In this document: positions 11,513-38,600 of the stretch, piece by piece
Position numbering within the stretch: the first letter of the stretch is position 1
How the letters are laid out: each line of letters starts with the position of its first letter
From: Eubacterium sp. 14-2
GTDB lineage: Bacteria > Bacillota > Clostridia > Lachnospirales > Lachnospiraceae
Assembly (NCBI RefSeq): GCF_000403845.2
Contig: NZ_KE159567.1
Span: 1,682,911-1,746,910 of the forward strand
Direction of reading: 5' to 3'
Length of the DNA stretch: 64,000 nucleotides
Program-made: the position numbers and the translations under genes
The notes under the pieces: generated by a model
What the model saw: only the letters and a program-made list of their open reading frames with translations
Databases searched by the model: none
What the model was told of the DNA's origin: nothing

Positions 11513-11699
11513 GTTAAGTACAGTATAGTTTTAATTGTGTATGGTGTGTATAGAGTAAGGGAAAAGCTGAAAATAGGAACTACATACACAAACAGAAAGA
11601 AAAATGTATATGACGTTACATGGAAGAGAATTAGAAAAATCCTTAAGTCAGGGATAGGTTCTGGTTCTTTTTTTATGCCTTAAGGAAGGGGATGTTTCG

Positions 11700-12808: not shown

Positions 12809-13195
12809 AGGATTGGAAAAAACGAAAGGGGAAAGCGATATGGGATGGATACTGGGTATTACAGCAGCAGTAGGGATTCTTTTGGCCGGAATAGCCGGAC
12901 TCGCATGCGTAGCGGTGTACAGAGTCAGTGAATGTCAGAACGATTGAAAAATTCCGTCCATCATGGCGGACAAAAGCGGATCAGAAAGAAAAGGAGCGTA
13001 GCATAACATGATCAGACAGATCGAAAAAGAGGAACTCCGAACGATGCATGGCCGTGAGGGGCTGGTCCTCCAGGGCTGCGGCGGGGATCTGAAGGAGTGG
13101 ACAGACGGGATCAACCAGATGCTGGAGCAGGAAGGGATCCTTCCCAAAGGGAAACGGCTGGATGATGTGGCGGTTTTCCGGAATGAGGGGATGAC
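12763..13195 (+). repeat. 433-bp perfect direct repeat, copy 1
   Basis: Identical, base for base as read, to 33904-34336 at a constant offset of 21141. It contains the end of the 131-residue gene, a complete 35-residue membrane peptide gene, and the first 63 codons of the 188-residue gene. The perfect identity indicates a recent duplication or gene conversion. Confidence 0.95.
12840..12947 (+). CDS. 35-residue single-pass membrane peptide
   Basis: MGWILGITAAVG begins a single hydrophobic helix of about 24 residues followed by a short polar tail (YRVSECQND). GGGGAAAG precedes ATG 12840. Its position inside the accessory operon and its duplication at 33981-34088 suggest a genuine small gene. 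Small hydrophobic peptides in such elements may be structural, holin-like or toxic. I have no evidence to choose. Confidence 0.55.
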   Translation: MGWILGITAAVGILLAGIAGLACVAVYRVSECQND

Positions 13196-15668: not shown

Positions 15669-16934
15669 ATGGGAAAAGATTTAAAGGGAAGAGAACTGGG
15701 AAAGGGTCTGTATCAGCGAAAGGATGGAAGATATGAGGCCAGAACAAAGATAAATGGAAGTGATGTCAGCATCTATGGATTCAATCTGCGGGAACTGAAA
15801 AAAGAATTTCAGGAATTAAAGGAAGAGGCACAGAACAGCATTGATTTTAGAAGGAAACATATAACACTGAATGAATGGTTTGAAGAATGGTTTCAGACAT
15901 ATAAGCTTCCGGTAGTTAAAGAAACCAGTGTTTATCCCATGAAAAATAAATTTTACGGTTCATTCGGCAAATATCTGGGAGAAAGAAAGCTGTGTGATAT
16001 CACCAATATTGACATTCAGAGTGTCATTAACCAAATGAGCAGCGATGGACGGGCGGTTTCGTCCATGCGGGAGGCGCTTGGAAGAATGCGGGAATGTATG
16101 GAATCTGCCAGGAATAACCAGATCCTTTCGATCAATCCCTGCTTTGAGATCAGTGTTCCTTGGGAAAACAGGCAGGTGACACGCCGCTTTCTGTCCAGGG
16201 AGGAACAGAATACATTTTTAAAGACGGTAGAGCATAGCTGGTATAAGGAAATGTTTTATTTGATGTTTCTGACAGGGATGAGGATCGGAGAGGTAGGAGG
16301 CCTGATGTGGAAAGATGTAGATTTTAATGAAAAATGTCTCCGTATCAATCGATCCCTTTCCTGCCAGTACGAATATGGAAAAAAGATGCTGCGCCTCCTG
16401 TCTCCCAAGACCCATAATTCCTACAGGAAGATTCCGTTTTTCGGGGAGGCGGAGGAAATGCTCCTGCAGCAGAAAGCAAAGACTGACTGCCTGAAAAAAG
16501 CGCTGGGAAACCGTTTTAGGGCAACCGGTGAATATGCGGATCTGGTATTTGTCACCACCATGGGAAGCCCGGTGCTCCGCTATCATGCGGAAAAGGAAAT
16601 CAAAAAGGTGGTGAAGGAGAACAATGAGCAGGAGGCATTTGAATCCGTGCAGGAACAGAGAGAACCCCATTATTTTGAGGACATGTACCCGCATGCGATT
16701 CGTCATACCTTCTGCAGCCGATGTTTTGAAGTGGGGCTGCAGCCAAAAGTGGTGCAGAGTATCATGGGGCACCAGCATTACAGCACAACCATTGATATCT
16801 ATACCCATGTGTCGGAGAGCAAATATCAGGAAGAAGTTGGGAAATTTGGGAGGGCAATGGAACTGGAAGAAAGTAGCAGTGGGGAAGAACCAGAGGAGAC
16901 CACAGATCCTGGAATGATGCAGACATTCGGTTAA
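15669..16934 (+). CDS. int: Tyrosine integrase, Tn916 family
   Basis: 421 residues. N-terminal AP2-like arm-binding region (GLYQRKDGRYEARTKINGSD), core-binding SAM-like domain (about 60-165), catalytic domain with Arg 205 (GMRIGE), a Lys in SPKTHNSYRK, HAIRH (His 342, Arg 345), His 368 in GHQHYS and nucleophile Tyr 378 in DIYTHV. All catalytic residues are present, so the enzyme may be active. Two broken copies of its 3' end lie at 18415 and 28440. Core attachment repeats were not identified. Confidence 0.92.
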   Translation: MGKDLKGRELGKGLYQRKDGRYEARTKINGSDVSIYGFNLRELKKEFQELKEEAQNSIDFRRKHITLNEWFEEWFQTYKLPVVKETSVYPMKNKFYGSFGKYLGERKLCDITNIDIQSVINQMSSDGRAVSSMREALGRMRECMESARNNQILSINPCFEISVPWENRQVTRRFLSREEQNTFLKTVEHSWYKEMFYLMFLTGMRIGEVGGLMWKDVDFNEKCLRINRSLSCQYEYGKKMLRLLSPKTHNSYRKIPFFGEAEEMLLQQKAKTDCLKKALGNRFRATGEYADLVFVTTMGSPVLRYHAEKEIKKVVKENNEQEAFESVQEQREPHYFEDMYPHAIRHTFCSRCFEVGLQPKVVQSIMGHQHYSTTIDIYTHVSESKYQEEVGKFGRAMELEESSSGEEPEETTDPGMMQTFG

Positions 16935-18166: not shown

Positions 18167-18382
18167 TTGGAAAGCGAGAAAGCAGTAGTTATGTGTAATC
18201 CGAGTAAAGGGGTAGAGGAGAGAGGAATTGCGATTGGCCTAGAGCGAGGTATAGAAACAACAACATTAAATGCGATCCGGAATTTGATGGAGACTTTGAA
18301 GCTGACGGCAGAGCAGGCAATGGAGGCATTGAAGGTACCAAAAGAGGAAAAGGTTAAGTATGCAGGGATGTTGAAAGGATAG
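18167..18382 (+). pseudogene. Tandem copy of the Rpn C-terminal tail
   Basis: It begins immediately after the Rpn stop codon and in the same frame. It repeats the unit from LESE through KGVEERGIAIGLERG to the MLK end with about 90 percent resemblance by eye. It lacks the catalytic core, so it is a tandem duplication of the gene's last 230 bases. The GLERG run is shorter than in the parent. Confidence 0.8.
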
Positions 18383-18414
18383 ATTTTGCGGAATGCTATC
18401 TGTACTTGTGACTC

Positions 18415-18665
18415 ATGTATCCACATACGATCCGGCATACTTTTTGCAGCCACTGCTTTGAGGCAGGGATGCAGCCCCCAAAGTGGTGCAGAGCATTATG
18501 GGGCACCAGCATTACAGCACAACCATTGATATCTATACCCATGTGTCGGAGAGCAAATATCAGGAAGAAGCTGGGAAAATTGGGAGGGCGATGGAACCGG
18601 AAGAAATGGGGAATGAAGAGGCGGAACAGGAGTTGCGTTTCGGAATGGGGCAGACATTTGGATGA
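18415..18665 (+). pseudogene. Integrase 3'-end fragment A
   Basis: It reads MYPHTIRHTFCSHCFEAGMQP, then shifts frame at CCCCC (about 18474) and continues KVVQSIMGHQHYSTT ... DIYTHVSESKYQEE, ending with GMGQTFG and TGA. It is the last 80 or so codons of an integrase closely related to, but distinct from, the intact one at 15669. No 5' part is present. Confidence 0.9.
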
Positions 18666-18771
18666 GGATAGGGAGATGGATTGCTTTTGGGGATTATTCA
18701 AAACTGATAGATTATTGGGATTCATGCAATGGATGATAAACTAAAGACTGACAGTATAAAACTATAGCAGA

Positions 18772-18827
18772 TTGGTGCAAAATTCAAGAACATAATGAGG
18801 CAGAAAGACTGCACCAAGTTGGTGCAG
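18772..18827. promoter_or_regulatory. TTGGTGCA repeats and palindrome
   Basis: TTGGTGCA at 18772-18779 and a perfect palindrome CTGCACCAAGTTGGTGCAG at 18809-18827 lie upstream of the small antitoxin-like gene. They look like an operator or recombinase site. Assignment is tentative. Confidence 0.4.
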
Positions 18828-18959
18828 AAATATCATTTCCCTTTTTTTTCGGTTTTGTGTCCTGGCGTTATGCACAAATTAATTGAAAACGCTGTATGCG
18901 GTGGTAAAATATGACTAGAAACTAAGATACGGATATTTGTTTGTAAAGGAGGCGAGAAA

Positions 18960-19145
18960 ATGGCTATGTCAAGTATACTGACCAATGTAAAGATTGTTGA
19001 TCCTAAAAAAATTGAATCCTTCATCAAAGCACTTGACGCTTCGGCAGATGATCCCAAAAGAGAGCCATCCACTCCGGTAAGCCGCCAGATGACGAATATT
19101 GATGAGATACGAAGACTCATGGCAAAGAAGGTTCTGATGAGATGA
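18960..19145 (+). CDS. Small antitoxin-like protein paired with GNAT start (copy A)
   Basis: 61 residues (MAMSSILTNVKIVDPKKIESF ... VSRQMTNIDEIRRLM) with AAAGGAGG upstream. In related bacteria I recall this protein directly preceding a GNAT acetyltransferase gene, with MKEY-VVNIW at its start. Here a four-base ATGA overlap with such a start is visible at 19142-19145, but the GNAT is cut after nine codons. This suggests the antitoxin of a GNAT toxin pair that has lost its toxin. A frameshifted copy is at 28826. Confidence 0.6.
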   Translation: MAMSSILTNVKIVDPKKIESFIKALDASADDPKREPSTPVSRQMTNIDEIRRLMAKKVLMR

Positions 19146-19929: not shown

Positions 19930-20365
19930 TTTGTGGCGTGAGTGTTCCTGAGTATTCTTAGAGGGAAGTATATTTCCGGTAGAGAGGATCTGGTCGGGTT
20001 TGGCGTGGCGGAGTTTCTGGATGACGGATACACAGGAAGGAATCTGGACCGTCCGGGCTTTCAGGAGCTGATTGGCAGTGCCGGGAAGGTGAGGTGTATC
20101 GTGGTGAAGGACCTTTCCCGGCTTGGGAGGAATTATGTGGAGGTGGGGAACCTGCTGGAGCAGGATTTCCCCTTTCTGGGGGGTAAGGGTTATTTCTGTG
20201 AATGACGGGTACGACAGCGCCATGCTGGATGGGGCAGACGGGCGGTATTGACGTAGCGTTCAGGAATACCCATGAGGGAATCGTGACCCAGGAGGAATTT
20301 GACCGGGCCAATGCCAATATGCGGAGTGTAGTGCCAGGAAAGAAAAATAAGATGGTCCGGCTTAT
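19930..20365 (+). pseudogene. Large serine recombinase remnant
   Basis: Part of the resolvase catalytic domain is visible: EFLDDGYTGRNLDRPGFQEL, then CIVVKDLSRLGRNYVEVG. After a frameshift near 20185 the text jumps to VNDGYDSAMLDGADGR and then NTHEGIVTQEEFDRANANM of the recombinase domain. The catalytic Ser region and C-terminus are missing. It is a multiply deleted relic of a TnpX/Tn4451-type element. Confidence 0.8.
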
Positions 20366-20371
20366 GTATGG

Positions 20372-20659
20372 GTGGTGGCCGGATGAGCAGCTTTCGGATG
20401 AGGTTAAGAGGTATGTGGAGAGCCGGCTGGACAGGCTGGGGTGGATGTGGTGTTGAGTCATACTACGCCGTTGAAGTATGAGCTGGCGGAGGTGTTTATG
20501 GCCGGGGTGGATCAGAATAAGGTGGATAAGTCTACGGAGGAATGGCTGGACGGAATTGAGGATAGGCAGGATTATGGGAAGTGGTATTGCGGGCATTATC
20601 ATACGGAGAAGAGAATAGATAGCCTGCAAATTATGTTTGAGAATTTTGGGGTGGTTTGA
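20372..20659 (+). pseudogene. Metallophosphoesterase C-terminal fragment
   Basis: One frame gives DEQLSDEVKRYVESRLDRLGW. After a frameshift near 20445 the other gives VDVVLSHTTPLKYELAEV and KWYCGHYHTEKRID. CGHYH is the metal-binding GHxH of calcineurin-like phosphoesterases. It is fused to the recombinase relic and has no N-terminal half. Confidence 0.7.
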
Positions 20660-20710
20660 TAAGAGCCGAGATAGCAAAAGAATTTTTAAGATTGTTTGTG
20701 AGGTTTTAGT

Positions 20711-22366
20711 ATGTTGCAAATTATATCAGGTAAGTTTTTTAGCGATAATGGTGAAATAAGACATAATGACTGCTATGGAGTGCTTTATTCTAACTTGGAA
20801 TATTTTGGAAGTGTTAAATATAAAAATATTGAATTGAATACTATTGATTGGAAGAGAGGAATGCCTGCATATGTATTAAACTTTGATAATAATTTAGAGG
20901 TAGTTGATTCAACTAAAATATTGGTAAAAGTAGGAGATGATGAAATTATTCGTCAGATGAAATATATTTTGACGTTTAGTCTGAATGGAATATTTGATGA
21001 AAATGAAAGTGCTGTTGAAAAAATAATTAGGACGAATATTACACAAGGAGATACATCAGAACAATTTCTGGGTGAAATAGTTCGTAATAATAAATTTATT
21101 AGCGATGATGAGCTTCAATATAGCATTTCTTTTTATAATCAAATGATAGGATTAAAAAGGGAAGATTATAAAATCATCATGCAATGTTTAAGCGCATATT
21201 ATTCAGCAATAAGAGTTTTATATGAAGATATTAGTCTTTCGTACAGCATGTTAGTATATTGCATAGAATCCTTATCGTCAAATTATGATAAATATATTCC
21301 TACATGGGATGATTATGACTATGATATAAAGATGAAATTAGAAAAAATTTTGTCTGGATATGATAATGACTTGTTTGATGAAATTAAAAAAATTCTTATT
21401 AAGGATAAACACTTAAAACTTTCAAAACGTTTTGTTAATTTTGTTTTGTCTAATGTTACAAATGATTTTTTTGAAGTAACGGGTAGAAAAGGTATTACTT
21501 ATGATGAACTTGAAAATGCTTTGCAGAATGCTTATAGTATCAGATCCCAATATGCCCATGAATTAAAACCAATAATGAAGCAATTGCAAATTGGAAGTTT
21601 TTCAGACAAATGTGATGTGTTTGAATGGGAGCATGCTATTTTTTTTACATATGGTGGGCTAATAAGGTTAGTCAGACATATTATTATAAATTTTGTTGAG
21701 AAGTGTGAAAAAGTAGAGAAAGAGGATTATCCTTGGCATTCAGAATTGCCAGGGACAGTTAATATAAAGTTATCACCTACAATTTGGTTGGGAATAGCGA
21801 AAGACAATGACGGAAGTAGAGGTATTGCTAATCTTGAAGGGTTACTACAATGTATACAATCGGATCCTAAAAATGTACCCAATATAAATGAGTGTGTGGA
21901 AAGGTACTTAACACATTTTAGTGAAATTAAAAGAAATAATAAAGCGGCCGTTTTAGCGTTATGTTGGATATACATATTATCAATAAGTAGTCTTGACGAA
22001 GCGTATAAAGAAAAAATGGTAAGTAAATTGAAATTGTATTTGGAAATGATATCAGAATGTAACATATACAATATACTTATTTTCGCTATAACACAATTTG
22101 ATTATTTAGAGATTGATTGGACTGTTGATGATATGATAAAAGAGATAAATAAGTATAATAAGAATAAATTCAAAAAGAATCATATTAAGTTGCCTAATAA
22201 TGTAGAAACCAATATATATATTATGATAGCAGAAAGCATGCAGACAAATGAGCAAACTTTATATTGGTACAATAAAGCTTATAAAAATTGTGTAAATAAT
22301 AAAGAACTTCAAGAGCAAATAGGTTTAAGGTTAAAGGAGTTTGGCTGTGATAATCAATTTAATTGA
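20711..22366 (+). CDS. Large AT-rich protein with HEPN-type motif; candidate defence gene
   Basis: 551 residues, mostly alpha-helical after a beta-rich N-terminus (MLQIISGKFF ... CYGVLYSNLEYFG). Near the middle is IRSQYAHEL with Arg 278 and His 283, the RxxxxH pattern of HEPN ribonucleases such as ApeA-like proteins. A hydrophobic helix follows at about 300-325. GC is visibly much lower than in neighbours, which indicates recent acquisition. The ribosome site is weak (GTGAGG about eight bases upstream). It lies about 680 bases before the STAND gene, in the same orientation. Function inferred only: RNA cleavage on phage infection. Confidence 0.6.
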   Translation: MLQIISGKFFSDNGEIRHNDCYGVLYSNLEYFGSVKYKNIELNTIDWKRGMPAYVLNFDNNLEVVDSTKILVKVGDDEIIRQMKYILTFSLNGIFDENESAVEKIIRTNITQGDTSEQFLGEIVRNNKFISDDELQYSISFYNQMIGLKREDYKIIMQCLSAYYSAIRVLYEDISLSYSMLVYCIESLSSNYDKYIPTWDDYDYDIKMKLEKILSGYDNDLFDEIKKILIKDKHLKLSKRFVNFVLSNVTNDFFEVTGRKGITYDELENALQNAYSIRSQYAHELKPIMKQLQIGSFSDKCDVFEWEHAIFFTYGGLIRLVRHIIINFVEKCEKVEKEDYPWHSELPGTVNIKLSPTIWLGIAKDNDGSRGIANLEGLLQCIQSDPKNVPNINECVERYLTHFSEIKRNNKAAVLALCWIYILSISSLDEAYKEKMVSKLKLYLEMISECNIYNILIFAITQFDYLEIDWTVDDMIKEINKYNKNKFKKNHIKLPNNVETNIYIMIAESMQTNEQTLYWYNKAYKNCVNNKELQEQIGLRLKEFGCDNQFN

Positions 22367-22401
22367 AATAAAAAAATTTTGTCCCATGCTTGACATAAGC
22401 T

Positions 22402-22587
22402 GACGGAAATAAACGTATTGCAGCAACCATATTTCTCTATTTCCTGGATAAAAATGATGTTTTGTTTATTGATGGGAAGAAATTAATTGATGATCATACA
22501 TTAGTAGCCTTAACAATCATGGTAGCTGAATCTAGGCCGGAGGAAATGGAGATGATGATTACTGTAATTTTGAATTGTTTGAAATGA
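22402..22587 (+). pseudogene. Fic-domain protein C-terminal remnant
   Basis: It starts at DGNKRIAATIFLYFLDKN, the second half of the Fic motif HPFxxGNKR, and runs to a normal-looking end at TGA 22585-22587. In-frame upstream codons contain a stop and no HPF. AMPylation-type toxin remnant. Confidence 0.75.
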
Positions 22588-22639
22588 TTGTCAGATATGC
22601 AGTGGAGAATAGAGTGCTGATGCAAATAAATTTCTCGAA

Positions 22640-22950: not shown

Positions 22951-23044
22951 TTATATATGGTAAGATTTTGGAAAAGAGAGAATTTGGAAAACCTGTATGG
23001 TGCGTAATTAATACTGTAAATCAGATTTATAAAAGGGGACTAGT

Positions 23045-26000
23045 ATGGCATACGAAGCAGGCGGACGGGCAGATAAATCAGGAAATCGTTTTGAGTATAA
23101 TTGGACAATCAACAAAATGTTGGATGTCCTGAATGAAAAAATACAGTATCTTACCATAGAAGCAGTCGGAGACGACGAGCGGGGAGTGGATTTATGGATT
23201 GGAAATAAGGATGGGACTCGTGAAGGGCAGCAATGCAAAGGGCGGTGCCGCAATAATGAATATTGGACATATGGGGAGGTGAACGAAAAAGGAATCTGGG
23301 ATAACTGGAAGGTTCAGCTTGAGAATAGCAAAGCAAATATGGTTTCTCTAGTTTCGCCGCTTGCATTTAATGTATTGGAAGACATAACCCAGATGGCGAG
23401 GAATACAGACGCCGCAAAGCCGAGGAATTTTTACGAATATCAGATAAGGAAGTCAGGAAAAAAGACGGTAAAGTTTTTTCATCACTACTGTGATGCAATG
23501 GGTATAAATCCTGCTGAAGAGAGGGGCATAGCAACGACGATTGACTATATGTCAAGAACGTTTTATCGAAACCCTGGCAACTTTGGATTGAGAGAAATTC
23601 TTCTACAAAGAATTGAACTATTATTTGTTGGCGATGCGGAAGAGATTTTTTCAAAGCTCCTCAAATTTGTTCTCCTAGAGGACATTTGGGGAAAGAAGAT
23701 AGATGCATTGATGATTACAGATTACTGTAAGGATACGGGTATTGTCTTTCGGGATTTGGCAAGGGATGAGAGAATACTTCCAGTTATATTGAACTTAAAC
23801 GAAGAATATCAATCCGTATTCATAAAGTTTCAGAGTGGCTATATTATCCGGAATGAGGCAAAAAGCTGCTGGCAGTGGATATTGGATGGAAAGTCAGTAA
23901 TCATCCATGGACATGCAGGTATGGGAAAAAGTGGATGTATAGAAAACATTATTCAATTCTGTAAGGAATCGGAGACCTTGTATCTGGCTGTCAAGCTGGA
24001 CAAAAGAATACCACATGAAACTGCAGAAAGATGGGGACAAAGCATGGGATTGCCAGCATCTGTTTCGCATTGCTTGAATGCTGTGTCGTGTGATAAAAGG
24101 GCAGTCCTTATTTTCGATCAGTTGGATGCTTTGCGATGGACGCAGGCACATTCGAGCGAGTCTCTTGCCATATGCAGAAAAATAATACGGGAAGTTGAGC
24201 AGATGAATCAGGAGCGCAGGCATAAGATCTCAATTGTTATGGTATGTCGCACATACGATTTGGAAAATGACAATAACATACAAGGGTTATTTAAAGATTC
24301 GGCGAGACGGGGCTGCATGGTAGAGTGGGCAAGGATCCGGGTGGATAAATTGAGCCAGGAAGAGGTGGAAAAGGTTGTTGGTTCTGTTTATAAATCCCTA
24401 TCCCCAAAGACAAGGGATTTGTTGTCAACGGCAAGCAACCTGTATATATGGGAGCACCTGGATGTCAACCGGGAAGTTGAAATATGTACAAAACAGCAGC
24501 TTGTGCGAGAATGGTGGGGACAGCTAAAGAGCAAGGCTGATAGGAATGGCTTCGATTCAGATAAATTGGAAAAGATAAAGGACAACTTCATAAAGTACTG
24601 TGACAGAAGCGGGAAGATGTATGCAAGCTGTTCCCGGCTGAACATGCCAGAGGATTACAGGAATTTTCTGCAGTCGAATGGATTTTTTGTACTAATGGGT
24701 GATAAGGTGTCATTGGTGCATCAATCCATTTTGGATTGTTTTTTTGCGGAGCATATGTTGGATCAGTTTTATGATGATGTCAGCCTTTCAGATATTATAG
24801 GCGAAAAGGACAGACAGACTCCGGGCAGGCGATATCAGGTACAGATGTTCTTGCAGCTTTTGCTGGAAGATTCAGAAGAGGATTTTTTAGCTGTCGGGGA
24901 AAGACTATTAGAATTAACGGATGTGCGGTACAATGTGAAATATGTGTTTATAGAAATCCTCTCCCAGATAACAGAACCGGATAAGAAAGTGTTCAAGTTT
25001 GTCCGAAGATTCCTGTGGGATGATAGATGGGGAAAACACTTTAGGAGCATAGTGGTTTTAGGGAAGCAGGCATATGTAAGAAAACTTCGTGAGTGTGGTG
25101 ACCTGGATATATGGATGCAGTATGAAGATAAATATAGCTATGTAACAGGGCTGTTTCGCAGTATTATTCCGAACTGCAACGTGGAAGATATAGCATTTTT
25201 ACAGAAGTATGTATTAGATCCAGATAAAGCAGATGAATGGATAAAATGTCTGGTAAGGGATATCCATGAAGGCAGTGAGGCCTTTTTTGAACTAAAATTA
25301 AGCTATTACAGACAATTCCCTCAGTCCTTTAAGCAATATAAGAATATTCTGCTGGGAGAAAAAATAAAGGATTTGCGTTCAGTTCAATTAGTGGCATTGA
25401 TGCTGGAACAACACGTGAACGAAGGGTACGATAGCCTTTATCGTTATGATGAAGTCTGTGTATCAGAAGATGCAAATATCTTCAAAACACAATATAAAAA
25501 TATCCTTGAAATATTGATGCCCTTTATACCGATGGAGGATCAGGGTGTTTTTTCTAGGTGGTCTGCAAGATATTCCGGCAAACACAGTTTGGAAAGGGTA
25601 TGTATTCAGATTATAAAAAGTGCGAATAGGCATTTTGCCCAAAATGAGCCTGAGTTATTTCTGTCAAAGGTTTCGTGCTATATAGGTACAGGGGTTCCTC
25701 TGCATAATGAATTGATACTGGATTCCTTTCAGTATCTGCCGGATTTATATGCAGATTATATTTTGGAATATATGTGTGGTGATTTTGAAGAGAGAATATT
25801 TGAATGTACAAGCGGAAATGGGGATAAACTGCTGCTTGCAAAGGCAGTGCTTGAAAAAAATGCCGTGATTTGTTCAGATGAAGCATATTCTGAATTGGAG
25901 TTTTGTATCATCCATTATAAGACACCGGATGCAAAAGAACGATTATATCGCAGGATAGAATATAACAAAACAAAAAAGAAAGGGGATTTGAGAGCATACT

Positions 26001-27589
26001 GCAAGTTCTGTGGGGATCTGCAAAATGATTTGCTGGGAATTCTACCATTAGACCGTATGGGAAAAGAGGCTAAAGAATTAAAAACGGTTTTTGGTAGATC
26101 ATACGAAAATGATTCAATATATCAATATAATGCAGATTGTAAGGGCAGGGGTGTCAATTCCCCAATTGCCGGAAAAAAACTGAACTTTAATGACTGGAAA
26201 AGAATACTTTTGAATAATGAACTGCCCTCAAGGAAATTCGGGGAATTTAAAGAAAAGAACGGGAGGTATATAGATAATTCCCTTGAAGCATTTGCATTAG
26301 AATTTCAAAAGGCAGTTTCAGACGCCCCAGTTGAATTTTTACAAAATATTCTGAAAATGGAGGAAGAGATAAATGCAGTTTTTGTCAGAGCATTGGCCAG
26401 AGGGATTGCTTATAGCAATAAACATGATGAAGTTGACAATGGCAGCATAGAAGAACTGTTTTTGAAGTACCCTTATGATTATGGGACAGGGGTAGCATTG
26501 GAATACTGCGAGATTATAGAAAGGAAACAGGATATTCTTTGGTCTGAATCTACTTTGGACATGCTGTGCAGCATCATCCATAGGCGTAGAGAGTTTATTC
26601 AGGATAAATCAGCAGAGGATGCCGAGGCTTCGAAAGAGACCGTAGAAAAAGCGGAAAGTAAAATGCTATATTCTGTTGTAGGGGTTGCTGTTCAGGCAAT
26701 AGGAGGCATATTGTTCGGAAATAGAAGTGCACTGGAACAATTTAAGGCACCATTTGATGAATTGGTGGATGATGTTGATTTTGTATCGAGATATGCATGT
26801 GTCTATGCCTTATGGACAGCTTACCATATTGACAGGGGCTGGGCGATAGCTAGGATTAGGAGAATGTTTCTTTCAAACTTTCGGTTGGCAGGTATTTCAG
26901 ATAGGGGAATCCATTTTGCCCTGTATAACGAAGATAAAGAAATTGTCCAGAATGTGTTAAGGAATGGATTCTGTTCTGATGATGGTGTCCTAAAAGAAAG
27001 ATGTGGTGAATCCATTGCTGAAATGTATCTCATTTATGATGATTTTGATGATATATTTGATTCCTTTCCATTATTGGATGAACAACAGAAAAAAGCCATG
27101 GTCGGAATGCTTATAGTATATCTTGGAATTGATAAATATCATGAAAAAGCGAAAAAAGAATTAAGCCATATTCTTGAATATAATGACGAGAAACTAATCG
27201 ATTCATGGTCTGGTTTATTCTATATAAGCAGGATATGCCTATCGCAGGACAGAGATTTTCTGATGCAACTAATGACATCAGAACTGGGGGCTAAGATGAT
27301 GTTTGCATTTGAAAAATACATAAGTAAGCATGGCAGTTTATTGGATTATTCAGACATAATCCTTAAAATGGCTTACTATATTTTAGAAGATGCAGATATA
27401 ACCAGGCAGGACAGGTGGTTGATTGAAAGAGATTTGATAAAATTAGTCTGGGGGCTTTATGATGAAGCTAATTCTGAAGAGGATAAGGATGAAGATATTT
27501 CCTCAAGGTGTTTGGATATTTGGGATTTGATGTTTGAGAAGCAGATTGGAGAGACACAGGAATTGACTAGAAAGATGATGGAATTATAA
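23045..27589 (+). CDS. Giant STAND NTPase with N-terminal Cap4-like nuclease (Avs-type candidate)
   Basis: 1514 residues. The N-terminal 70 residues show GNRFEYNW, Asp 49 in GVDLWI and Gln 63-x-Lys 65 in GQQCKGR, a PD-(D/E)XK pattern as in Cap4-type dsDNases. The NTPase has Walker A GHAGMGKS (289-296), Walker B VLIFDQLD (Asp 358) and CRTYDL (Arg 402), followed by a winged-helix-like region. The remaining roughly 950 residues are helical and repeat-like, the usual sensor part. The architecture matches Avs/AVAST antiviral STAND proteins that recognise phage proteins and then cleave DNA. Start ATG 23045 behind AAAAGGGGAC. Single intact frame, no decay. Confidence 0.75.
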   Translation: MAYEAGGRADKSGNRFEYNWTINKMLDVLNEKIQYLTIEAVGDDERGVDLWIGNKDGTREGQQCKGRCRNNEYWTYGEVNEKGIWDNWKVQLENSKANMVSLVSPLAFNVLEDITQMARNTDAAKPRNFYEYQIRKSGKKTVKFFHHYCDAMGINPAEERGIATTIDYMSRTFYRNPGNFGLREILLQRIELLFVGDAEEIFSKLLKFVLLEDIWGKKIDALMITDYCKDTGIVFRDLARDERILPVILNLNEEYQSVFIKFQSGYIIRNEAKSCWQWILDGKSVIIHGHAGMGKSGCIENIIQFCKESETLYLAVKLDKRIPHETAERWGQSMGLPASVSHCLNAVSCDKRAVLIFDQLDALRWTQAHSSESLAICRKIIREVEQMNQERRHKISIVMVCRTYDLENDNNIQGLFKDSARRGCMVEWARIRVDKLSQEEVEKVVGSVYKSLSPKTRDLLSTASNLYIWEHLDVNREVEICTKQQLVREWWGQLKSKADRNGFDSDKLEKIKDNFIKYCDRSGKMYASCSRLNMPEDYRNFLQSNGFFVLMGDKVSLVHQSILDCFFAEHMLDQFYDDVSLSDIIGEKDRQTPGRRYQVQMFLQLLLEDSEEDFLAVGERLLELTDVRYNVKYVFIEILSQITEPDKKVFKFVRRFLWDDRWGKHFRSIVVLGKQAYVRKLRECGDLDIWMQYEDKYSYVTGLFRSIIPNCNVEDIAFLQKYVLDPDKADEWIKCLVRDIHEGSEAFFELKLSYYRQFPQSFKQYKNILLGEKIKDLRSVQLVALMLEQHVNEGYDSLYRYDEVCVSEDANIFKTQYKNILEILMPFIPMEDQGVFSRWSARYSGKHSLERVCIQIIKSANRHFAQNEPELFLSKVSCYIGTGVPLHNELILDSFQYLPDLYADYILEYMCGDFEERIFECTSGNGDKLLLAKAVLEKNAVICSDEAYSELEFCIIHYKTPDAKERLYRRIEYNKTKKKGDLRAYCKFCGDLQNDLLGILPLDRMGKEAKELKTVFGRSYENDSIYQYNADCKGRGVNSPIAGKKLNFNDWKRILLNNELPSRKFGEFKEKNGRYIDNSLEAFALEFQKAVSDAPVEFLQNILKMEEEINAVFVRALARGIAYSNKHDEVDNGSIEELFLKYPYDYGTGVALEYCEIIERKQDILWSESTLDMLCSIIHRRREFIQDKSAEDAEASKETVEKAESKMLYSVVGVAVQAIGGILFGNRSALEQFKAPFDELVDDVDFVSRYACVYALWTAYHIDRGWAIARIRRMFLSNFRLAGISDRGIHFALYNEDKEIVQNVLRNGFCSDDGVLKERCGESIAEMYLIYDDFDDIFDSFPLLDEQQKKAMVGMLIVYLGIDKYHEKAKKELSHILEYNDEKLIDSWSGLFYISRICLSQDRDFLMQLMTSELGAKMMFAFEKYISKHGSLLDYSDIILKMAYYILEDADITRQDRWLIERDLIKLVWGLYDEANSEEDKDEDISSRCLDIWDLMFEKQIGETQELTRKMMEL

Positions 27590-28439: not shown

Positions 28440-28660
28440 ATTTATATTTCCATGCCATATGTCACATATTCTGCCGCTGATGCTTTGAGGCAGATATGCA
28501 GCCAAAGGTGGTGCAGGGTATCATAGAATATCAGCATTACAATACAACAATTGACATTTATACTTATATGGCGGATGAGAAGTAGGAAGAAAGTGGAAAG
28601 TTTGGAAAGGCTATGGAGGTTGCTGAATTGGGAGAATTGGACAACTTGGGGATGGCGTAG
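28440..28660 (+). pseudogene. Integrase 3'-end fragment B
   Basis: The homologous frame reads HAICHIFCR, stop, CFEADMQPKVVQGII ... QHYNTTIDIYTYMADEK, stop. The catalytic Arg of HxxR is Cys here, and GHQHY reads EYQHY. With two in-frame stops, this copy is older than fragment A. It is again followed by the small antitoxin and GNAT start. Confidence 0.85.
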
Positions 28661-28825
28661 ATGCTTCAGTGAGGTGTATATATTAAAATAGGAAATAATC
28701 GCAAAGTGACAACAAATGATTGAGAATCTGAAAATTGCATAACCCGATTGAAAAAAGGGACCTGAGATGATAAGATAAAAATAAAAGTAGAAAAACAAGT
28801 GTTTTGTTGAAGAAGAGGCGATAGA

Positions 28826-29004
28826 ATGGCTACATCCAGTATACTGACCAATGTAAAGATTACTGATTCGAAAAAATTGAATCTTTTATCAAAGATTTTG
28901 ATGCTTTGGCAGATGCTCCCAAAAGAGAGCCATCCGCACCGGTGAGTCGCCAGATGACAAATATAGACGAGATACGGAGCTTGATGTCCAAGAGGGTTCG
29001 ATAA
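28826..29004 (+). pseudogene. Small antitoxin-like gene, copy B, frameshifted
   Basis: It begins MATSSILTNVKITDSKK like the gene at 18960, loses frame near 28875, and regains it at REPSAPVSRQMTNIDEIRSL before TAA 29002-29004. It is the second copy of the integrase-end, antitoxin, GNAT-start arrangement. Confidence 0.85.
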
Positions 29005-29168: not shown

Positions 29169-29367
29169 GTTTGGGCAGGGAGAAGGCAGAGCCGCTGAGG
29201 AAGAGAGGATACCTATAAGTCTATAGGAAGCATTGATTACAGTGTGTGAAAAATCAGACGTTAATATTGATGAGCAATCATATAGATGACTTTGTCAAAG
29301 TGAACGGATTAATAGTAGAGGATTGGGGATAAAATACAGAAATACACATTGCAGGGGTGTAGATTTC

Positions 29368-32316
29368 ATGAATATAGAAGCATATAATCTGGATTCTCTT
29401 CGGAGATTAGTACGGAGTCTTCAGGATGAAAATAAAAGACTGAAACAACAGCTGGATAAAGCCAATATTCCCTATGAAACGGAAAATATGTTTGCGGGAA
29501 AAATAGAAAACACCCAGGAATACGATCCGGATCAGGGAGGGCGTATTCAGAACCAATTTATCACGCGGGAACTGGCAAACCGGTATTTTTCCATGTTCTG
29601 GGGCAGAACCGATGTATATGCAAAAAGAGGAGCGAAAGGCGGGTATTTTCCGCAGTGTAATAATCGCTGGGATAACCGCCTTTGTCCAAAGCAGCAGGGT
29701 GAGAAGCAAAGCTGCGAGGTATGTGAACATAGGGAGTGGACAAAGCTTACACCGGAGAAACTCATGAACCATTTACTTGGGATGAAAGAAGATGGTTCTG
29801 ATGTGTTAGGGGTATATCCTCTTCTTGCAGATGGCACATGCCGGTTTCTTGTATTTGATTTTGACAACCATGAAAAAGACGCGGAGCAGACAGATTTCGC
29901 AAACATGGATGAGGAGTGGCATGAGGAAGTGGATGCCATCAGGATGATGTGTGAACTTAACGGCATTACACCATTGGTAGAGAGATCCCGGTCAGGGAGA
30001 GGGGCCCATGTGTGGATTTTTTTTAAGAAACCCATATCTGCGTCTTTGGCAAGAAACTTTGGATTTTTGTTACTGGACAAAGGTTCTGCTTCCATCAATT
30101 TAAAGTCTTTCCATTATTATGACCGAATGTATCCCTCTCAGGACGCAGCAAGTGGTATTGGAAATCTGATCGCGCTGCCATTGCAGGGAGGGGCGCTTAA
30201 AAACGGCAACAGCGCTTTTGTGGATAAGAACTGGAATGCATATCCGGATCAATGGGACGTTCTGTTAAATCGGACAGAGAAGCTTGGAAATGATGAGATA
30301 GAGCGTCTTATGGCAAAGTGGCAGGGAGAACTGTCACAAACTACGGGGATATCGGCTGCTGTAACGATACAGAACAGACCGAAACCCTGGAAGAAAAAAG
30401 TCGGTTTTATAAAGTCCGATGTTGTAGGGAAAATGCACATTGTACTGGGCGACGGGATCTATGTTGACACTCTGAATCTGATGCCCAGGCTTCAGAACCA
30501 GATCAGGAGCATGGCGGCTTTCGATAATCCTATATTTTATAAAAATAAGCGGTTAGGCTATTCCAACTATAATAATTTCAGCGCTGTGTATATGGGAAAA
30601 GATGTGGATGGCTACATCGCCATTCCCCGGGGCTTGAGAGACAATCTGATTTTGTCCGCAAAAGAAGCGGGGATTGAATGTGAGATAGAAGATCAGAGAG
30701 AAAAGGGAAGACCAATCCGGGTATCTTTCCAGGGAGACTTGAAAACACAGCAGGATTTGGCAGCGCATAGGCTTCTTGCCTATGACCACGGTGTTTTAAG
30801 CGCGGCTACCGCATTTGGTAAAACGGTGGTGTGCAGTTATCTTATATCGGAGAAAAAAGTGAATACGCTCATTCTGCTTCAAAGTAAAGATCTGCTGGAA
30901 CAGTGGGTGGAAGAACTGAATAAGTTTCTGACCATAGATGAGGAACCGCCTTTTTATAAAACGAAAACAGGGCGTGAGAAACGAAGAGACAGTGTGATCG
31001 GCATCCTGCATGGAAACAAGAATACTCTCACGGGTATTATTGATGTAGCCATGATTGGCTCCATGTACAGCAAAGGAAAATTCAATAAAAGAATCAATTC
31101 CTATGGAATGGTCATTATGGATGAGTGCCATCACGCAGGCTCCGCAACTGCAACCCAAGTTCTGCAAAAGGTAAACGCCAGATATGTTTATGGAGTAACT
31201 GCAACTCCAAAGCGGGGCGATAATCTGGAGAAGATCATCCATATGCTGCTTGGGCCGGTCCGGCACAGCTACACGGCAAAAGAACGGGCTATAGAGCAGG
31301 GGATCGGTCATTATGTGTATCCGAGATATACGAGGGTAATAGATACAAGAGAGGATAGGGGAGATATCAATGGAGCCTATGCATTGATTGGCAATAGCAC
31401 GGTAAGAAATGACATGATTCTTGAAGATACCAGGGCTTGTGTTAAGGATGGAAGGACTCCGGTTATTTTGACCAGATATAAGGAACAGGCGAAATATTTG
31501 TATGAGAATTTACAAAAAGGTGCAGACCATGTGTTTCTCTTTTATGGAGATAACAGTGATAAAGAGAATTCATCCATAAGGCAGCGCCTTAAAGAAGTTT
31601 CAGAGGATGAGAGCCTGATCTTGGTGGCAACGGGACAGAAGATTGGCGAGGGATTCGATTACCCAAGACTTGATACCCTGATGTTGGCGGCTCCAGTATC
31701 ATTTGAGGGAAGGCTGGAGCAGTACATTGGCAGACTAAACCGGGATTATGAGGGAAAGAAGGAAGTGATTGTCTACGATTATATTGATTCCCATATCCGG
31801 GTTTTTGACAATATGTATGTAAAAAGGCTTCGTACCTATAAGAGAACAGGCTTTGAACTGATTGCAAATGGTGTTTTGGCAAAGCAGAACGTGAACGCAA
31901 TTTATGACAGCGGCAGCTATATGGATGTATTCGAACAGGATATTGTAGAATCTGAGAAGAAGATTATCGTGTCCAGCCCGGAGATTACCGAAGACAAGGT
32001 GGATCGTTTTTTATGTCTTGTGAAAGCAAGGCAGGAAGCAGGCTGCAAAGTTATGGTAATTACGACAGAGCCGCAGAATATTGCCTATGGCAGTCCGGAA
32101 TTTTGCCAAAGACTTATTGATACTATGCGGGAAAGTGGTATTCATGTTATCATAAAAGAAAATGTGGAAGAGCACTTTTCTGTCCTGGATGATGAACTTG
32201 TCTGGCATGGCGGAATGAACCTTCTTGGCAAGGAAGATGTATGGGACAATTTGATAAGGGTTAGGTCGGCTCAGATAGCGGCAGAATTATTGGAGATAGC
32301 TCTGAAAGAGGAATGA
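29368..32316 (+). CDS. AEP primase / SF2 helicase / PLD-like fusion (TOTE-type)
   Basis: 982 residues from ATG 29368 (GGGGTG upstream; an in-frame TTG 29323 is less likely). N-terminal coiled coil, a Cys cluster (LCPKQQ ... CEVCEH), then an archaeo-eukaryotic-primase-like domain with LVFDFDNHE (Asp 164, Asp 166) and SRSGRGAHVWIFF. A superfamily 2 helicase follows with ATAFGKT (Lys 485), DECHH (585-589), TATPKR, GEGFDYP and QYIGRLNR. The end looks like a degenerate phospholipase-D domain (LVWHGGMNLLG). This combination matches the AEP proteins of TOTE conflict systems. It is probably a defence or element-replication factor. Confidence 0.75.
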   Translation: MNIEAYNLDSLRRLVRSLQDENKRLKQQLDKANIPYETENMFAGKIENTQEYDPDQGGRIQNQFITRELANRYFSMFWGRTDVYAKRGAKGGYFPQCNNRWDNRLCPKQQGEKQSCEVCEHREWTKLTPEKLMNHLLGMKEDGSDVLGVYPLLADGTCRFLVFDFDNHEKDAEQTDFANMDEEWHEEVDAIRMMCELNGITPLVERSRSGRGAHVWIFFKKPISASLARNFGFLLLDKGSASINLKSFHYYDRMYPSQDAASGIGNLIALPLQGGALKNGNSAFVDKNWNAYPDQWDVLLNRTEKLGNDEIERLMAKWQGELSQTTGISAAVTIQNRPKPWKKKVGFIKSDVVGKMHIVLGDGIYVDTLNLMPRLQNQIRSMAAFDNPIFYKNKRLGYSNYNNFSAVYMGKDVDGYIAIPRGLRDNLILSAKEAGIECEIEDQREKGRPIRVSFQGDLKTQQDLAAHRLLAYDHGVLSAATAFGKTVVCSYLISEKKVNTLILLQSKDLLEQWVEELNKFLTIDEEPPFYKTKTGREKRRDSVIGILHGNKNTLTGIIDVAMIGSMYSKGKFNKRINSYGMVIMDECHHAGSATATQVLQKVNARYVYGVTATPKRGDNLEKIIHMLLGPVRHSYTAKERAIEQGIGHYVYPRYTRVIDTREDRGDINGAYALIGNSTVRNDMILEDTRACVKDGRTPVILTRYKEQAKYLYENLQKGADHVFLFYGDNSDKENSSIRQRLKEVSEDESLILVATGQKIGEGFDYPRLDTLMLAAPVSFEGRLEQYIGRLNRDYEGKKEVIVYDYIDSHIRVFDNMYVKRLRTYKRTGFELIANGVLAKQNVNAIYDSGSYMDVFEQDIVESEKKIIVSSPEITEDKVDRFLCLVKARQEAGCKVMVITTEPQNIAYGSPEFCQRLIDTMRESGIHVIIKENVEEHFSVLDDELVWHGGMNLLGKEDVWDNLIRVRSAQIAAELLEIALKEE

Positions 32317-33903: not shown

Positions 33904-34336
33904 AGCGGAAGAGGAGGCAGCCATCCTGGCAGAGTGCCGGATGCAGTAAAGGATTGGAAAAAACGAAAGGGGAAAGCGATATGGGATGGATACTGGGTAT
34001 TACAGCAGCAGTAGGGATTCTTTTGGCCGGAATAGCCGGACTCGCATGCGTAGCGGTGTACAGAGTCAGTGAATGTCAGAACGATTGAAAAATTCCGTCC
34101 ATCATGGCGGACAAAAGCGGATCAGAAAGAAAAGGAGCGTAGCATAACATGATCAGACAGATCGAAAAAGAGGAACTCCGAACGATGCATGGCCGTGAGG
34201 GGCTGGTCCTCCAGGGCTGCGGCGGGGATCTGAAGGAGTGGACAGACGGGATCAACCAGATGCTGGAGCAGGAAGGGATCCTTCCCAAAGGGAAACGGCT
34301 GGATGATGTGGCGGTTTTCCGGAATGAGGGGATGAC
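33904..34336 (+). repeat. 433-bp perfect direct repeat, copy 2
   Basis: Identical to 12763-13195. It contains a second complete 35-residue membrane peptide gene (33981-34088) and the first 63 codons of the 188-residue accessory gene (from 34149). It ends exactly where FtsX permease sequence begins, marking the right edge of the island. Confidence 0.95.
33981..34088 (+). CDS. 35-residue single-pass membrane peptide, duplicate
   Basis: Identical to the gene at 12840-12947, including its ribosome site. Intact, because it lies wholly inside the perfect repeat. Confidence 0.5.
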   Translation: MGWILGITAAVGILLAGIAGLACVAVYRVSECQND

Positions 34337-35526
34337 TGGCAAAAATCCAAATTTTGCGTTACAGGAAAAAGAATATGCTGACCATAAGTTCCCTTATCCT
34401 GACAGGAGTATTGCTGCTGGGGCTGTCATCTGTCCTTTCTTCAATAGATGCCAGAGAGATGTCTCTGTCCGGTTTTACAAGAGGGCAGTTTGTGATAGGA
34501 TTTACCAGTCAGGAACTGCGGGAAAATCCTTTGGAGAAGGTTCAGACGGAAAGCCCCTTTACGGATGAAATATACCATGCCCTGGCCAGCGTTTCCGGTG
34601 TAAAAGAAATTGCAGATGACTGGCATCTTCCTGTGTCCGTTGATTTACAGGCAGCGGAGTCGGATGCAGAAATTGTGGGGTTTGTACAGGATGATATGGA
34701 ATTACTGCAGAGTTGTATTTCAGACGGGATAATTCCTGATTATGAGAATCTGGTATCGCAGAATCAGCTTATTATCGGCAGGCCTGATGATTTTGAGGAA
34801 ACTTTCCGTATACAGCCAGAGGTGGGCGTATCTGTTACATTGAAGGTTTTTGACGGAAATCACAGTGAGAATATGCAATTTGAGATAGCGGCAGTTCTTG
34901 ATGAAACTAAAAGGGGAAACAATGGGGATAAAATTGATATGTTATTACTGTCAGTTGATTCCATGAAAAAGATTGCAGACAGTAACTTAACGTATCAATA
35001 TGTAATCCGTGTGGGAGATGAGTTTGAACAGCAGGCGGAAAAAGAAATAGAACAGATTTTGGCAGAACATCCCCGTTTGGATGCTGTCACCCTTTCGTCT
35101 GCTGTTGCCCAAAACGAAAATTTCCTGCAGGGAACAGAATTTGCGCTTGCAGCTGCAGTCATATTCATAGGTTGTTTTTCAGTGATGAATTTACTGAATA
35201 CGATATTGACGGGTATTATAACAAGACGTAAAGAGTTTGCACTTATGCGCTCTGTGGGAATGTCAGAAAAGCAGCTTTCCTCCATGGTACATTACGAAAG
35301 TCTGATTGTGGTATCTGTGGGGCTTGTCCTGTCACTTTCCATTGGCGGCGGCATTGGATATGCTGTTTGCAGTTTTCTGAAAAGCAGCCTGATGAGTTAT
35401 CTGAATTATCAGTTTCCGTATGGTATTGCTGTTTTTTACGGGATCATTGTCATTTTGTGCAGCAGTATTATGACAGAAGCGGCATTAAAATATCAAAATA
35501 AACTGTCGGTAACAGAGTTATTTTGA
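34337..35526 (+). pseudogene. FtsX/MacB-type permease, N-terminus missing
   Basis: In frame from 34339: AKIQILRYRKKNMLTISSL, a membrane helix, a roughly 200-residue extracellular domain, then the FtsX core (TRRKEFALMRSVGMSEKQL) with three C-terminal helices and the end SVTELF. The usual first half of an 800-residue permease is absent and the 5' side is accessory-repeat DNA. It would naturally follow the truncated ATPase at 11159-11512. A TTG at 34354 could start a 390-residue product, but no ribosome site is obvious. Confidence 0.85.
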
Positions 35527-36605: not shown

Positions 36606-38600
36606 ATGGAGAGAAGGAAATTTCCAGCTCGTTTCTGCGCGTTTTTACTGGCAGCAAGTCTCAGCGTTGCTGATACATTGCCTGTATATGCGGCCTCAGT
36701 ATCGAAGGAACCGGTAACGGATAAACAGCAGATGGAAGAAAATGCTGATGAAAAAATCGTTTCCGAAGAGGATACAGAAACAGCTGCTGAATCGGACAAA
36801 ATGGAACCGGAATCAGAAGTGGAAACTTCTGATATAACAGAAGCAGAAGAGAAAGCAGTTGGTGAAACCGAAATGGGAGCGGAGCCGGAAGCAGTTTCTG
36901 AGCCGGGAACAGGGGAAAGCCAGGAAGCGGCAGCCGGAATACAGACAGGCAGCGACGGACTGATTTATCTGGATGGTGTGCTCTATAACGGCTACTATAT
37001 GGACAGCGCAGGCATTCTATATCTGGTAACCAACGGAGGGGCAGAAGCGAAAACAGGAACTGTGGGCGCAGGAACTGTATATTACAGCATACCGGACAAT
37101 GGGATGATAACGCTCCCTGTCCAGACCGTGTATGTTGCAGGAAAAGTCTATACCGGATATTATCTGGAAGCGGATGGCATTCTGTATCTGGTAACTAATG
37201 GAGCAGCGGAAATAAAAACAGGAACTGTGGACGCTGGAACCGTGTATTACAGCATACCGGACAATGGGATGATAACGCTCCCTGCCCGTACCGTGTATGT
37301 TGCAGGAAAAATCTATACCGGATATTATCTGGAGGCAGATGGAATTCTGTATGCGGTAACCAATGGAGCGGCAGCGCCGGAAAGCAAAATCATCAGTGCA
37401 GGAACCGCATATTACAGTATACCGGACAATGGGATGATGACCCTGCCGAAGCAGACGGTGTATGTGGACGGTAAAGTATATACCGGGTATTATTATAACA
37501 GCAAAAAGAAGATGTACCAGGTGAAAAAGGGTACCCCCACACTGAAAACCGGAATTGTGAAAAAAGGTACCAGATATTACAGTTATAATGAAAAAAAGAA
37601 ACAGAAGCTGTCAAAAGAAACTTTGTATGTCAAAGGAAAAATCTATACCGGTAATTATCTGGACAGTAAAAAAAGAATGTACGGAGTGAAAAAGGGTACC
37701 CGTACACTGAAAACCGGAATTATGAAAAAAGGTACCGGATATTACAGTTATAATGAAGGAAAGACCCGGAAACTGTCAAAGGAAACCGTATATGTGAAGG
37801 GAACAGTCTATACGGGATATTACCTGAACAGTAAAAAGAAGATGTACAGCGTAAAAAAGGGAGCCGGTACACCGGAAACCGGAATCCTTCCGTCAGGAAC
37901 TAAGTATTATGGATATAAAGCGGGAAAAACACAGGAGCTGTCAAAGGATACACTGTATGTGGATGGAAAAGTGTACACGGGATATTATCAGGACAGCGGA
38001 AATCTTATGTACAGTGTAAATAAGGGAACCTGTTCTCTGATTACTGCAACCCTGAACGCCGGAACCGGTTATTACAGCCAGAATGCAAAGAAAATGCAGA
38101 CACTTTCCGCAACCACCGTGTATATCAATGGAAAATCAATGGAGGGCATGAGTCCCGAATCACTGGCAACCCTTCAGAGGGCCCAGGCAGTTGTGGCAGG
38201 TATTACAAATGACAGTATGACCAGGGAAGAAAAACTGAGAGTATGCTTTGATTATGTGAAAGCGGCTTATCCGGAAATCAAGCCAAGAATCCCCCATTAT
38301 CTGGGAATGGACTGGCCGGTGATTTATGCAAATGACATGTTTGTAAACGGAGCCGGAAATTGCTGCAGTTATGCGGCAGCATTTGCATATATGGCAAAAG
38401 CCATTGGGTACGAGGAAGTGTACTGCTGCAACAGCGGCGGCCATGGATGGGCTGAAATTGACGGGCTGATTTATGATCCGGAGTGGAGCAAATGGCACCA
38501 TGTCTATAACTATTTTGCGCTCAGCTATGATACTCCCACAGACCAGGGATATAAGGGAGCCATTGGAGCCGGAAAGCCCTGGATGCGGGTGAAAATCTGA
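36606..38600 (+). CDS. Secreted protein with 55-residue repeats and transglutaminase-like domain
   Basis: 664 residues. Signal peptide (about 1-31, ending PVYAA), an acidic low-complexity linker to about residue 115, then seven tandem repeats of about 55 residues (pattern GKVYTGYY ... GTVYYS ... TVYV) that resemble wall- or glycan-binding repeats. The C-terminal transglutaminase-like core has Cys in GNCCSYAAAF, His in GGHGWAEI and Asp in YDPEWS, a complete triad. It probably cross-links or cleaves peptide bonds at the cell surface. First gene of a block with O-acetylation proteins. Confidence 0.85.
   Translation: MERRKFPARFCAFLLAASLSVADTLPVYAASVSKEPVTDKQQMEENADEKIVSEEDTETAAESDKMEPESEVETSDITEAEEKAVGETEMGAEPEAVSEPGTGESQEAAAGIQTGSDGLIYLDGVLYNGYYMDSAGILYLVTNGGAEAKTGTVGAGTVYYSIPDNGMITLPVQTVYVAGKVYTGYYLEADGILYLVTNGAAEIKTGTVDAGTVYYSIPDNGMITLPARTVYVAGKIYTGYYLEADGILYAVTNGAAAPESKIISAGTAYYSIPDNGMMTLPKQTVYVDGKVYTGYYYNSKKKMYQVKKGTPTLKTGIVKKGTRYYSYNEKKKQKLSKETLYVKGKIYTGNYLDSKKRMYGVKKGTRTLKTGIMKKGTGYYSYNEGKTRKLSKETVYVKGTVYTGYYLNSKKKMYSVKKGAGTPETGILPSGTKYYGYKAGKTQELSKDTLYVDGKVYTGYYQDSGNLMYSVNKGTCSLITATLNAGTGYYSQNAKKMQTLSATTVYINGKSMEGMSPESLATLQRAQAVVAGITNDSMTREEKLRVCFDYVKAAYPEIKPRIPHYLGMDWPVIYANDMFVNGAGNCCSYAAAFAYMAKAIGYEEVYCCNSGGHGWAEIDGLIYDPEWSKWHHVYNYFALSYDTPTDQGYKGAIGAGKPWMRVKI

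Follow-up and report, generated by a model that had tools for sequence, protein, structure and literature searches.

Avs proteins are built as a nuclease, a STAND nucleoside triphosphatase (NTPase) and a repeat region in that order, and the long helical solenoid arm of Avs3 and Avs4 binds protein. In the part of PMC12931631 that treats them, STAND proteins combine an N-terminal effector, a central NTPase and a C-terminal sensor, with nuclease effectors in Avs1 to Avs4 and terminase, portal or Ksap1 as the targets that Avs proteins recognize; protease-activated nucleases are described for Avs1 and Hachiman in a section of PMC12799240. We analyzed a 64,000-nucleotide stretch of the Eubacterium sp. 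14-2 genome (contig NZ_KE159567.1, positions 1,682,911 to 1,746,910; hereafter the window), in which the open reading frame list and its translation give a single open frame of 1514 codons with an ATG start at 23045-27589 on the plus strand, encoding the protein P0001. Because nuclease motifs and profiles, a STAND NTPase and a helical solenoid follow one another in this protein, we consider it probable that P0001 is a single-gene, Avs-like immune receptor of the STAND/NLR type, and the likelihood is high that it works as Avs proteins do, with phage defense, a trigger and an oligomer as the presumed elements of its action. The computed support comprises an intact and constrained gene, the three-part order, intact motifs, homology of the STAND part to Avs2 and its resemblance in fold to Avs4 and to NLRs of animals, together with an arm that profile comparison indicates is common to at least one protein bearing another head.

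The P0001 gene is real, intact and under purifying selection, since its motifs are all kept and its crude ratio of replacing to silent change (pN/pS) is 0.22 against a copy at 99% identity on a metagenome-assembled contig (L009). The two copies differ at 30 codons, 16 silently and 14 with a replacement, and at no motif residue. An earlier note, made from the sequence alone, had described an intact frame here, which the presence of full-length homologues also bears out, and each motif that it listed (GNRF, Asp49, Gln63-x-Lys65, Walker A at 289-296, Asp358 and Arg402) is found where it was placed: GNRFE spans residues 13-17, followed by D49, Q63-C-K65, GHAGMGKS, D358 within VLIFDQLD, and R402. 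In a 12-row alignment of relatives (A2), Q63, K65, G289, A291, G292, G294, K295, S296, D358, D361, R402 and H559 are invariant, and position 49 is D in nine rows and E in three. The same note set the frame among decayed genes, which describes the immediate flanks, where integrase tails and a Fic-type gene survive as broken pieces (the latter with DGNKR, at about 22395-22590; both named by eye), but not the intact TOTE and 551-codon genes close by. Such wreckage would suit a gene on its way out that happens to be still unbroken within a decaying island after its expression or use was lost; against 1514 codons uninterrupted by a stop, the low pN/pS and the full set of motif residues, we regard this as very improbable.

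A model of residues 1-720 had a mean predicted local distance difference test score (pLDDT) of 65, with the ten-residue blocks of residues 240-690 mostly at 70-92 and dips to 53. Foldseek comparison of this N-terminal half with the PDB ranked the Avs4-portal structure (8dgf) first (E value of 1.6e-9) and Avs3-terminase (8dgc) fourth (4.2e-7), with origin recognition complex and archaeal AAA+ rows between them and NLRC4 and NLRP9 next. VIA-align gave Z scores of 17.4 for NLRP9 (403 residues, 4.9 Å), 16.1 for Avs4 (419 residues, but at a root mean square deviation of 18.7 Å) and 13.1 for Avs5 (249 residues, 12.0 Å). A P-loop NTPase joined to STAND-type helical and winged-helix parts, by which STAND/NLR-type proteins are recognized, is found in P0001, and in the model residues 240-700 are a predicted NTPase of this type; we take Arg402 to act as a sensor-1-like arginine, and the label of winged helix for part of residues 446-590 is presumed from the usual build of STAND proteins. 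Searched with P0001 alone, PDB sequences, Pfam, NCBIfam and PADLOC returned weak STAND/AAA hits or none, those from Pfam being nSTAND3/AAA matches that all lie below cut-off. The similarity to STAND NTPases foreseen in the earlier note is corroborated by the first rank of Avs4 and by a profile match to the STAND core of Avs2 (E value of 1.8e-8 over 278-571). Of the structural comparison that it proposed, the STAND part matched Avs4 best by Foldseek, and the fold of the head was not recovered, residues 1-219 being mostly modelled at pLDDT <50.

Across the 12 aligned relatives, the N-terminus conserves GG-x-ADK-x-GN-x2-E, D/E49, Q63 and K65. We built a nuclease profile from 17 rows including P0001, of which hhalign retained 16, and made single comparisons of it with 13 Mrr_cat domains (PF04471) and 4 Cap4-model domains (PF14130) from other genomes. 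The E values were 1.9e-4 over 54 columns for Mrr_cat (probability 48%) and 9.2e-4 over 91 columns for Cap4 (probability 23%), with the catalytic residues in register in both. Shuffling the profile columns 40 times never produced values as good (at best 0.0083 for Mrr_cat and 0.13 for Cap4), and nor did nine 140-residue slices taken elsewhere in P0001 (at best 0.14 and 0.03). Pfam reported no Cap4 or Mrr_cat match for P0001 alone in a scan to an E value of ≤1, and one relative (L030) met the Cap4 model at 0.018, under the cut-off. We assign residues 1-125 as a predicted PD-(D/E)XK nuclease domain, so that P0001 has, at the level of motifs and profiles, the N-terminal effector nuclease fused to a STAND part that defines Avs proteins. 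The name "Cap4-like" given to this head earlier holds insofar as motifs and profiles place it among the PD-(D/E)XK nucleases; an Mrr-type and a Cap4-type head nevertheless fit the profiles alike, Mrr_cat scoring slightly better and Cap4 aligning over the greater length. An Mrr_cat score at least as good as that of Cap4 could also be expected of a McrBC/Mrr-like type IV restriction enzyme, driven by NTP, which would read modified DNA directly and use its solenoid as a scaffold, but we give this explanation little credence, as the NTPase is STAND/NACHT-like and nearest to Avs4 and NLRs rather than of the McrB type, and Pfam detects no DNA-reading domain in P0001 at an E value of ≤1.

The C-terminal half, noted earlier as long and repeat-like, came out as a solenoid made entirely of helices in a model of residues 580-1514 whose mean pLDDT was 72. 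Fold comparison returned generic HEAT/ARM proteins such as the PP2A scaffold and importin (Z up to 14.7), with Avs4 absent from the best 50 rows, and these matches signify no more than a helical solenoid. As in Avs proteins, the C-terminal arm of P0001 is predicted to be built of repeats, with a putative role in sensing. The whole-family profile matched proteins from Herpetosiphon (L084; E value of 6.6e-57 over 4-1507), Nostoc sp. C057 (L086, with a SEFIR head; 9.1e-39 over 249-1406), Segatella copri (L085, a headless NACHT protein with a DUF2971 gene upstream; 4.1e-33 over 246-1434) and, in the STAND part, Haloferax (L088; 5.6e-15). The arm profile alone (660-1514) gave 1.7e-28 for L084, 3e-18 for L086, 1.7e-6 for L085, 5.8e-4 for L088, 0.29 for an 828-residue protein whose gene is followed by a transposase gene (L087), and 0.12, 0.20, 0.52 and 0.64 for four Avs2 proteins, these four values being at the level of controls in which each of the nine targets was shuffled once and reversed once (all 0.12 or worse). 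Of 20 unrelated HEAT-repeat frames (PF13646) taken as controls from same-class genomes, 19 were at ≥0.017 and the remaining one gave 5.3e-4 across 56 columns. The relation of the L086 arm stands because its value lies beyond all 20 of these controls, and by profile comparison the predicted arm is common to the family, L084 and L086 and probably to L085, whose arm slices, taken one at a time, did not surpass the top-scoring HEAT frame. The Haloferax protein was rejected as an arm relative, its arm value being about that of the best unrelated HEAT protein. Arm likeness is concentrated in residues 860-1260; over 660-860 every comparison was weak (best, 7.3e-4).

A STAND-nuclease of the same build might instead respond to plasmid or other invading DNA or to stress, and so serve as an anti-plasmid or general abortive system. 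Relatives encoded on plasmids and beside recombinase genes could act on competing elements, yet the arm is modelled as a long helical solenoid, a build that binds protein in Avs3 and Avs4, and Pfam offers no domain for reading DNA at an E value of ≤1; we judge this trigger unlikely. For the Avs-like receptor that we favor, we hypothesize that in the resting cell an ADP-bound STAND part would hold the N-terminal PD-(D/E)XK nuclease inactive until the long helical arm captures a phage protein. By analogy with Avs3 and Avs4, binding may lead the NTPase to exchange ADP for ATP and to oligomerize, joining the nuclease heads, and the active nuclease would then degrade DNA, which would stop the phage and probably kill the cell as well.

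Among described systems, Avs3 and Avs4 resemble P0001 in the nuclease-STAND-repeat order and in the Foldseek ranking, but differ in that no PADLOC Avs3 or Avs4 model was reported for P0001. No PADLOC Avs model at all was reported for it at an E value of ≤1, in a scan whose HMMER filters drop most matches above 0.1, nor any Avs1 to Avs5 model for nine members of the family profile (A1) at ≤0.01, which by profile places the family outside the named subtypes; a more distant relative (L025) touches PADLOC Avs2 in its STAND part at 0.025. Avs2 itself (PDLC02162; four proteins, L072-L075, from genomes of the same class; PDLC02165 is another Avs2 model), the one Avs subtype whose arm was compared profile to profile, is alike in the STAND core but differs in the arm, all four proteins scoring ≥0.12, and by profile the predicted arm of P0001 is not of the Avs2 type. 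This agrees with the earlier impression that the sensor is unlike the characterized subtypes, and the broader suggestion of an Avs-like gene is upheld by profile and fold tests for the STAND core, by profile for the putative nuclease head and by the model for the helical arm.

The closest solved structure found is chain 9n00_A, an "AAA family ATPase" (9n00, 9n01 and 9yix) of 1523 residues, which is nearly equal to P0001 in length and colinear with it in the nuclease and STAND parts. It matched the A1 profile with an E value of 4.5e-10 over residues 49-585, and its residues 46-568, the part covered by profile comparison, matched separate family slices at 1.2e-6 (N-terminal, 1-265) and 9e-16 (STAND); its C-terminal arm differs, matching weakly as a second stretch (residues 1211-1352, 1.1 bits). 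A literature search found no paper on 9n00 and, among the papers listed, none on this family. The PADLOC candidate PDC-M54A matched all nine A1 members (best E value, 9.1e-20), in the STAND part in the stretches shown, and met the arms of two family members at model positions 1201-1323 and 1252-1315 (1.1e-5 and 7.6e-4), suggesting that its arm may be distantly related to that of the family. It differs in that its best stretch in P0001 is just 317-474 of 1621, and it was rejected as the true family as its model met family members only in pieces across 148 genomes; no paper using the name PDC-M54 was found by literature search. GiPD474 was dropped as a smaller protein, with coordinates in the relevant part of PMC12724215 that span 1,086 bases.

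The Nostoc and Segatella proteins resemble the family in the STAND part and, by profile, in the arm (in Segatella probably), and differ from it in the head, which is SEFIR in one and absent in the other. We tentatively propose, with appreciable doubt, that STAND part and arm together constitute a receptor clade with one conserved non-Avs2 arm and interchangeable heads (PD-(D/E)XK, SEFIR, or none beside a DUF2971 gene), spread by mobile elements over several bacterial phyla and recognizing some phage protein that is neither terminase nor portal. If protective, the system would add a receptor clade whose arm lies outside the named Avs models searched, although the unnamed candidate PDC-M54A may be distantly related to it. 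With one relative or more retaining the arm under a different head, the arm by itself can be screened for its ligand, and the heads can be compared on one chassis.

Table 1. Features of the P0001 gene and its product, in window coordinates.
Feature	Position	Strand	Basis
Ribosome-binding-site-like AGGGGA	23034..23039	+	Sequence; 5 bases 5' of ATG
Nuclease-STAND-sensor gene (as predicted), intact, 1514 codons	23045..27589	+	Full-length homologues; pN/pS of about 0.22
Residues 1-125, predicted PD-(D/E)XK nuclease head (GGRADKxGNRFE, D/E49, Q63-x-K65)	23045..23419	+	Conservation; profiles Mrr_cat and Cap4; 9n00 match
Residues 126-265, linker, mainly helical, poorly conserved	23420..23839	+	Low-confidence secondary structure; mean identity 29%
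Residues 266-445, predicted STAND NTPase	23840..24379	+	Weak Pfam nSTAND3/AAA; fold and profile comparisons
Walker A GHAGMGKS, residues 289-296	23909..23932	+	Translation, alignment A2
Walker B VLIFDQLD, residues 354-361	24104..24127	+	Translation, alignment A2
Arg402 (CRTYD), presumed sensor-1-like arginine	24248..24250	+	Translation, alignment A2
Residues 446-590, helical and presumed winged-helix parts, invariant H559-x-S561-x2-D564	24380..24814	+	Alignment A2, model
Residues 591-1514, helical (HEAT/ARM-like) putative sensor arm	24815..27586	+	Model, fold and profile comparison
Residues 960-1120, arm slice	25922..26404	+	Best slice against Herpetosiphon L084 (E value of 4.5e-14); 1.4e-5 against SEFIR-headed L086

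Colinear full-length relatives of P0001 exist at 17-51% identity, the 51% relative being the one in L010. Gene content gives the impression, no firmer than that, of a gut-type Lachnospiraceae host. With P0001 as the query, matches at an E value of ≤0.001 were found in 5 of 99 relatives' genomes, 11 of 397 same-family genomes and 8 of 391 same-class genomes; all three counts include the window's own genome, the same-family count includes the hits of the relatives' count, several of the matches are truncated or split pieces, and 2 of the 8 same-class matches are weak and partial (3.6e-4 and 7.7e-4). The window's own genome carries a second full-length copy (L006; G000:C1:322380-326927) that is 36% identical to P0001 and that a viral-contig record (L027) repeats letter for letter. 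In a 16-row tree these two copies fall in different well-supported clades, and P0001 groups with a member from another genus, the pattern that horizontal transfer would give. The tree also places L084 beside L086, a grouping that was flagged as possible long-branch attraction and was not used. Full-length relatives are found on plasmids of an Isosphaeraceae planctomycete, Sinorhizobium and Rhizobium, and L030 sits in a prophage-like contig. Phage records queried with P0001 and with L030, and Escherichia coli genomes queried with part of L030, gave no match. One relative is split (L003 and L008; G036 contig C37), with residues 117-1513 and 2-138 about 16.8 kb apart on the same strand, a layout that the insertion of an element into the gene would leave.

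We inspected 13 neighborhoods of nuclease-headed members (the window, L024, L025, L026, L030 and L032-L039), of which 6 have a recombinase gene, recognized through Pfam in the window, from the annotation in L024 and L025, and by eye in L030, L032 and L038. Ten defense-like neighbor genes were picked by eye in four neighborhoods, and seven of them match a PADLOC model at an E value of ≤1e-5, namely two type I restriction subunits, a GmrSD-like protein, a SIR2-TPR protein, an FRG protein, a type IV-like helicase protein and one that matches through a protease domain; another matches Pfam AbiH. By eye, no neighbor gene recurs at all copies, which fits a single-gene system, and we count in favor of an Avs-like receptor the TOTE gene near P0001, the restriction, SIR2-TPR, GmrSD and AbiH genes that adjoin some relatives, and the separate clades of the two copies in one genome.

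Several points weigh against this assignment. The defense-like neighbors were chosen without a random control, the listed neighbors in L026 are metabolic, and the genes nearest the relative in L038 appear by eye to be sugar-polymer-like. The profile probabilities of the nuclease head are modest, and its fold was not recovered in a model built on a four-row alignment, which was limited to this depth because four viral-contig scans yielded only two distinct relatives, L027 among them. The Pfam hits of P0001 are all under curated cut-offs and none is a nuclease, its NCBIfam scan gives no hit, and from PADLOC it draws no more than two candidate models, PDC-M54A and the weakly matching PDC-S53, each within the STAND part. 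Relatives average 45% identity to P0001 over head and NTPase and 25-32% along the arm, but the linker (29%) and the part behind the NTPase (32%) diverge alike, so the divergence of the arm is not special and tells little about receptor evolution.

Beside the relative in L030, an AAA ATPase gene and an HNH-type gene (283-2609) look by eye like a Septu pair. Just downstream of two relatives, one of them L006, inspection by eye showed pieces of a RhuM-like gene (L032, 13952-14224; L033, 6965-7441); an association was dropped, as tblastn did not find the pieces in the window or ten other loci.

The island that carries the P0001 gene is flanked by an ABC-transporter ATPase gene that seems by eye to be broken in its 3' part (11159-11683) and, 23 kb downstream, by an FtsX-like permease gene (34354-35526), as if the island had split an operon. 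Two exact copies of a 433-bp sequence in direct orientation (12763-13195 and 33904-34336, 21,141 bp apart) bracket a tyrosine integrase gene (15669-16934), the P0001 gene and the intact TOTE conflict-system gene (29323-32316), whose product has archaeo-eukaryotic primase and helicase parts and ends in a weak match to PLD-like proteins; recombination between the repeats could lead to loss or circularization of the bracketed unit. Decayed integrase tails, again named by eye and each followed by a related small-gene fragment, lie on either side of the P0001 gene (about 18380-19134 and 28450-28999), about 9.87 kb apart, and look like successive insertions at one site. A 2.5-kb stretch (20000-22520) holds the intact 551-codon gene, which neither Pfam nor PADLOC names; L009 lacks the stretch but matches the window at 99% identity to its left and right, so that the stretch looks like a separate insertion or loss. 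Further downstream, a 664-codon gene (36606-38600) encodes a secreted-looking protein with tandem 165-bp repeats (36982-37937).

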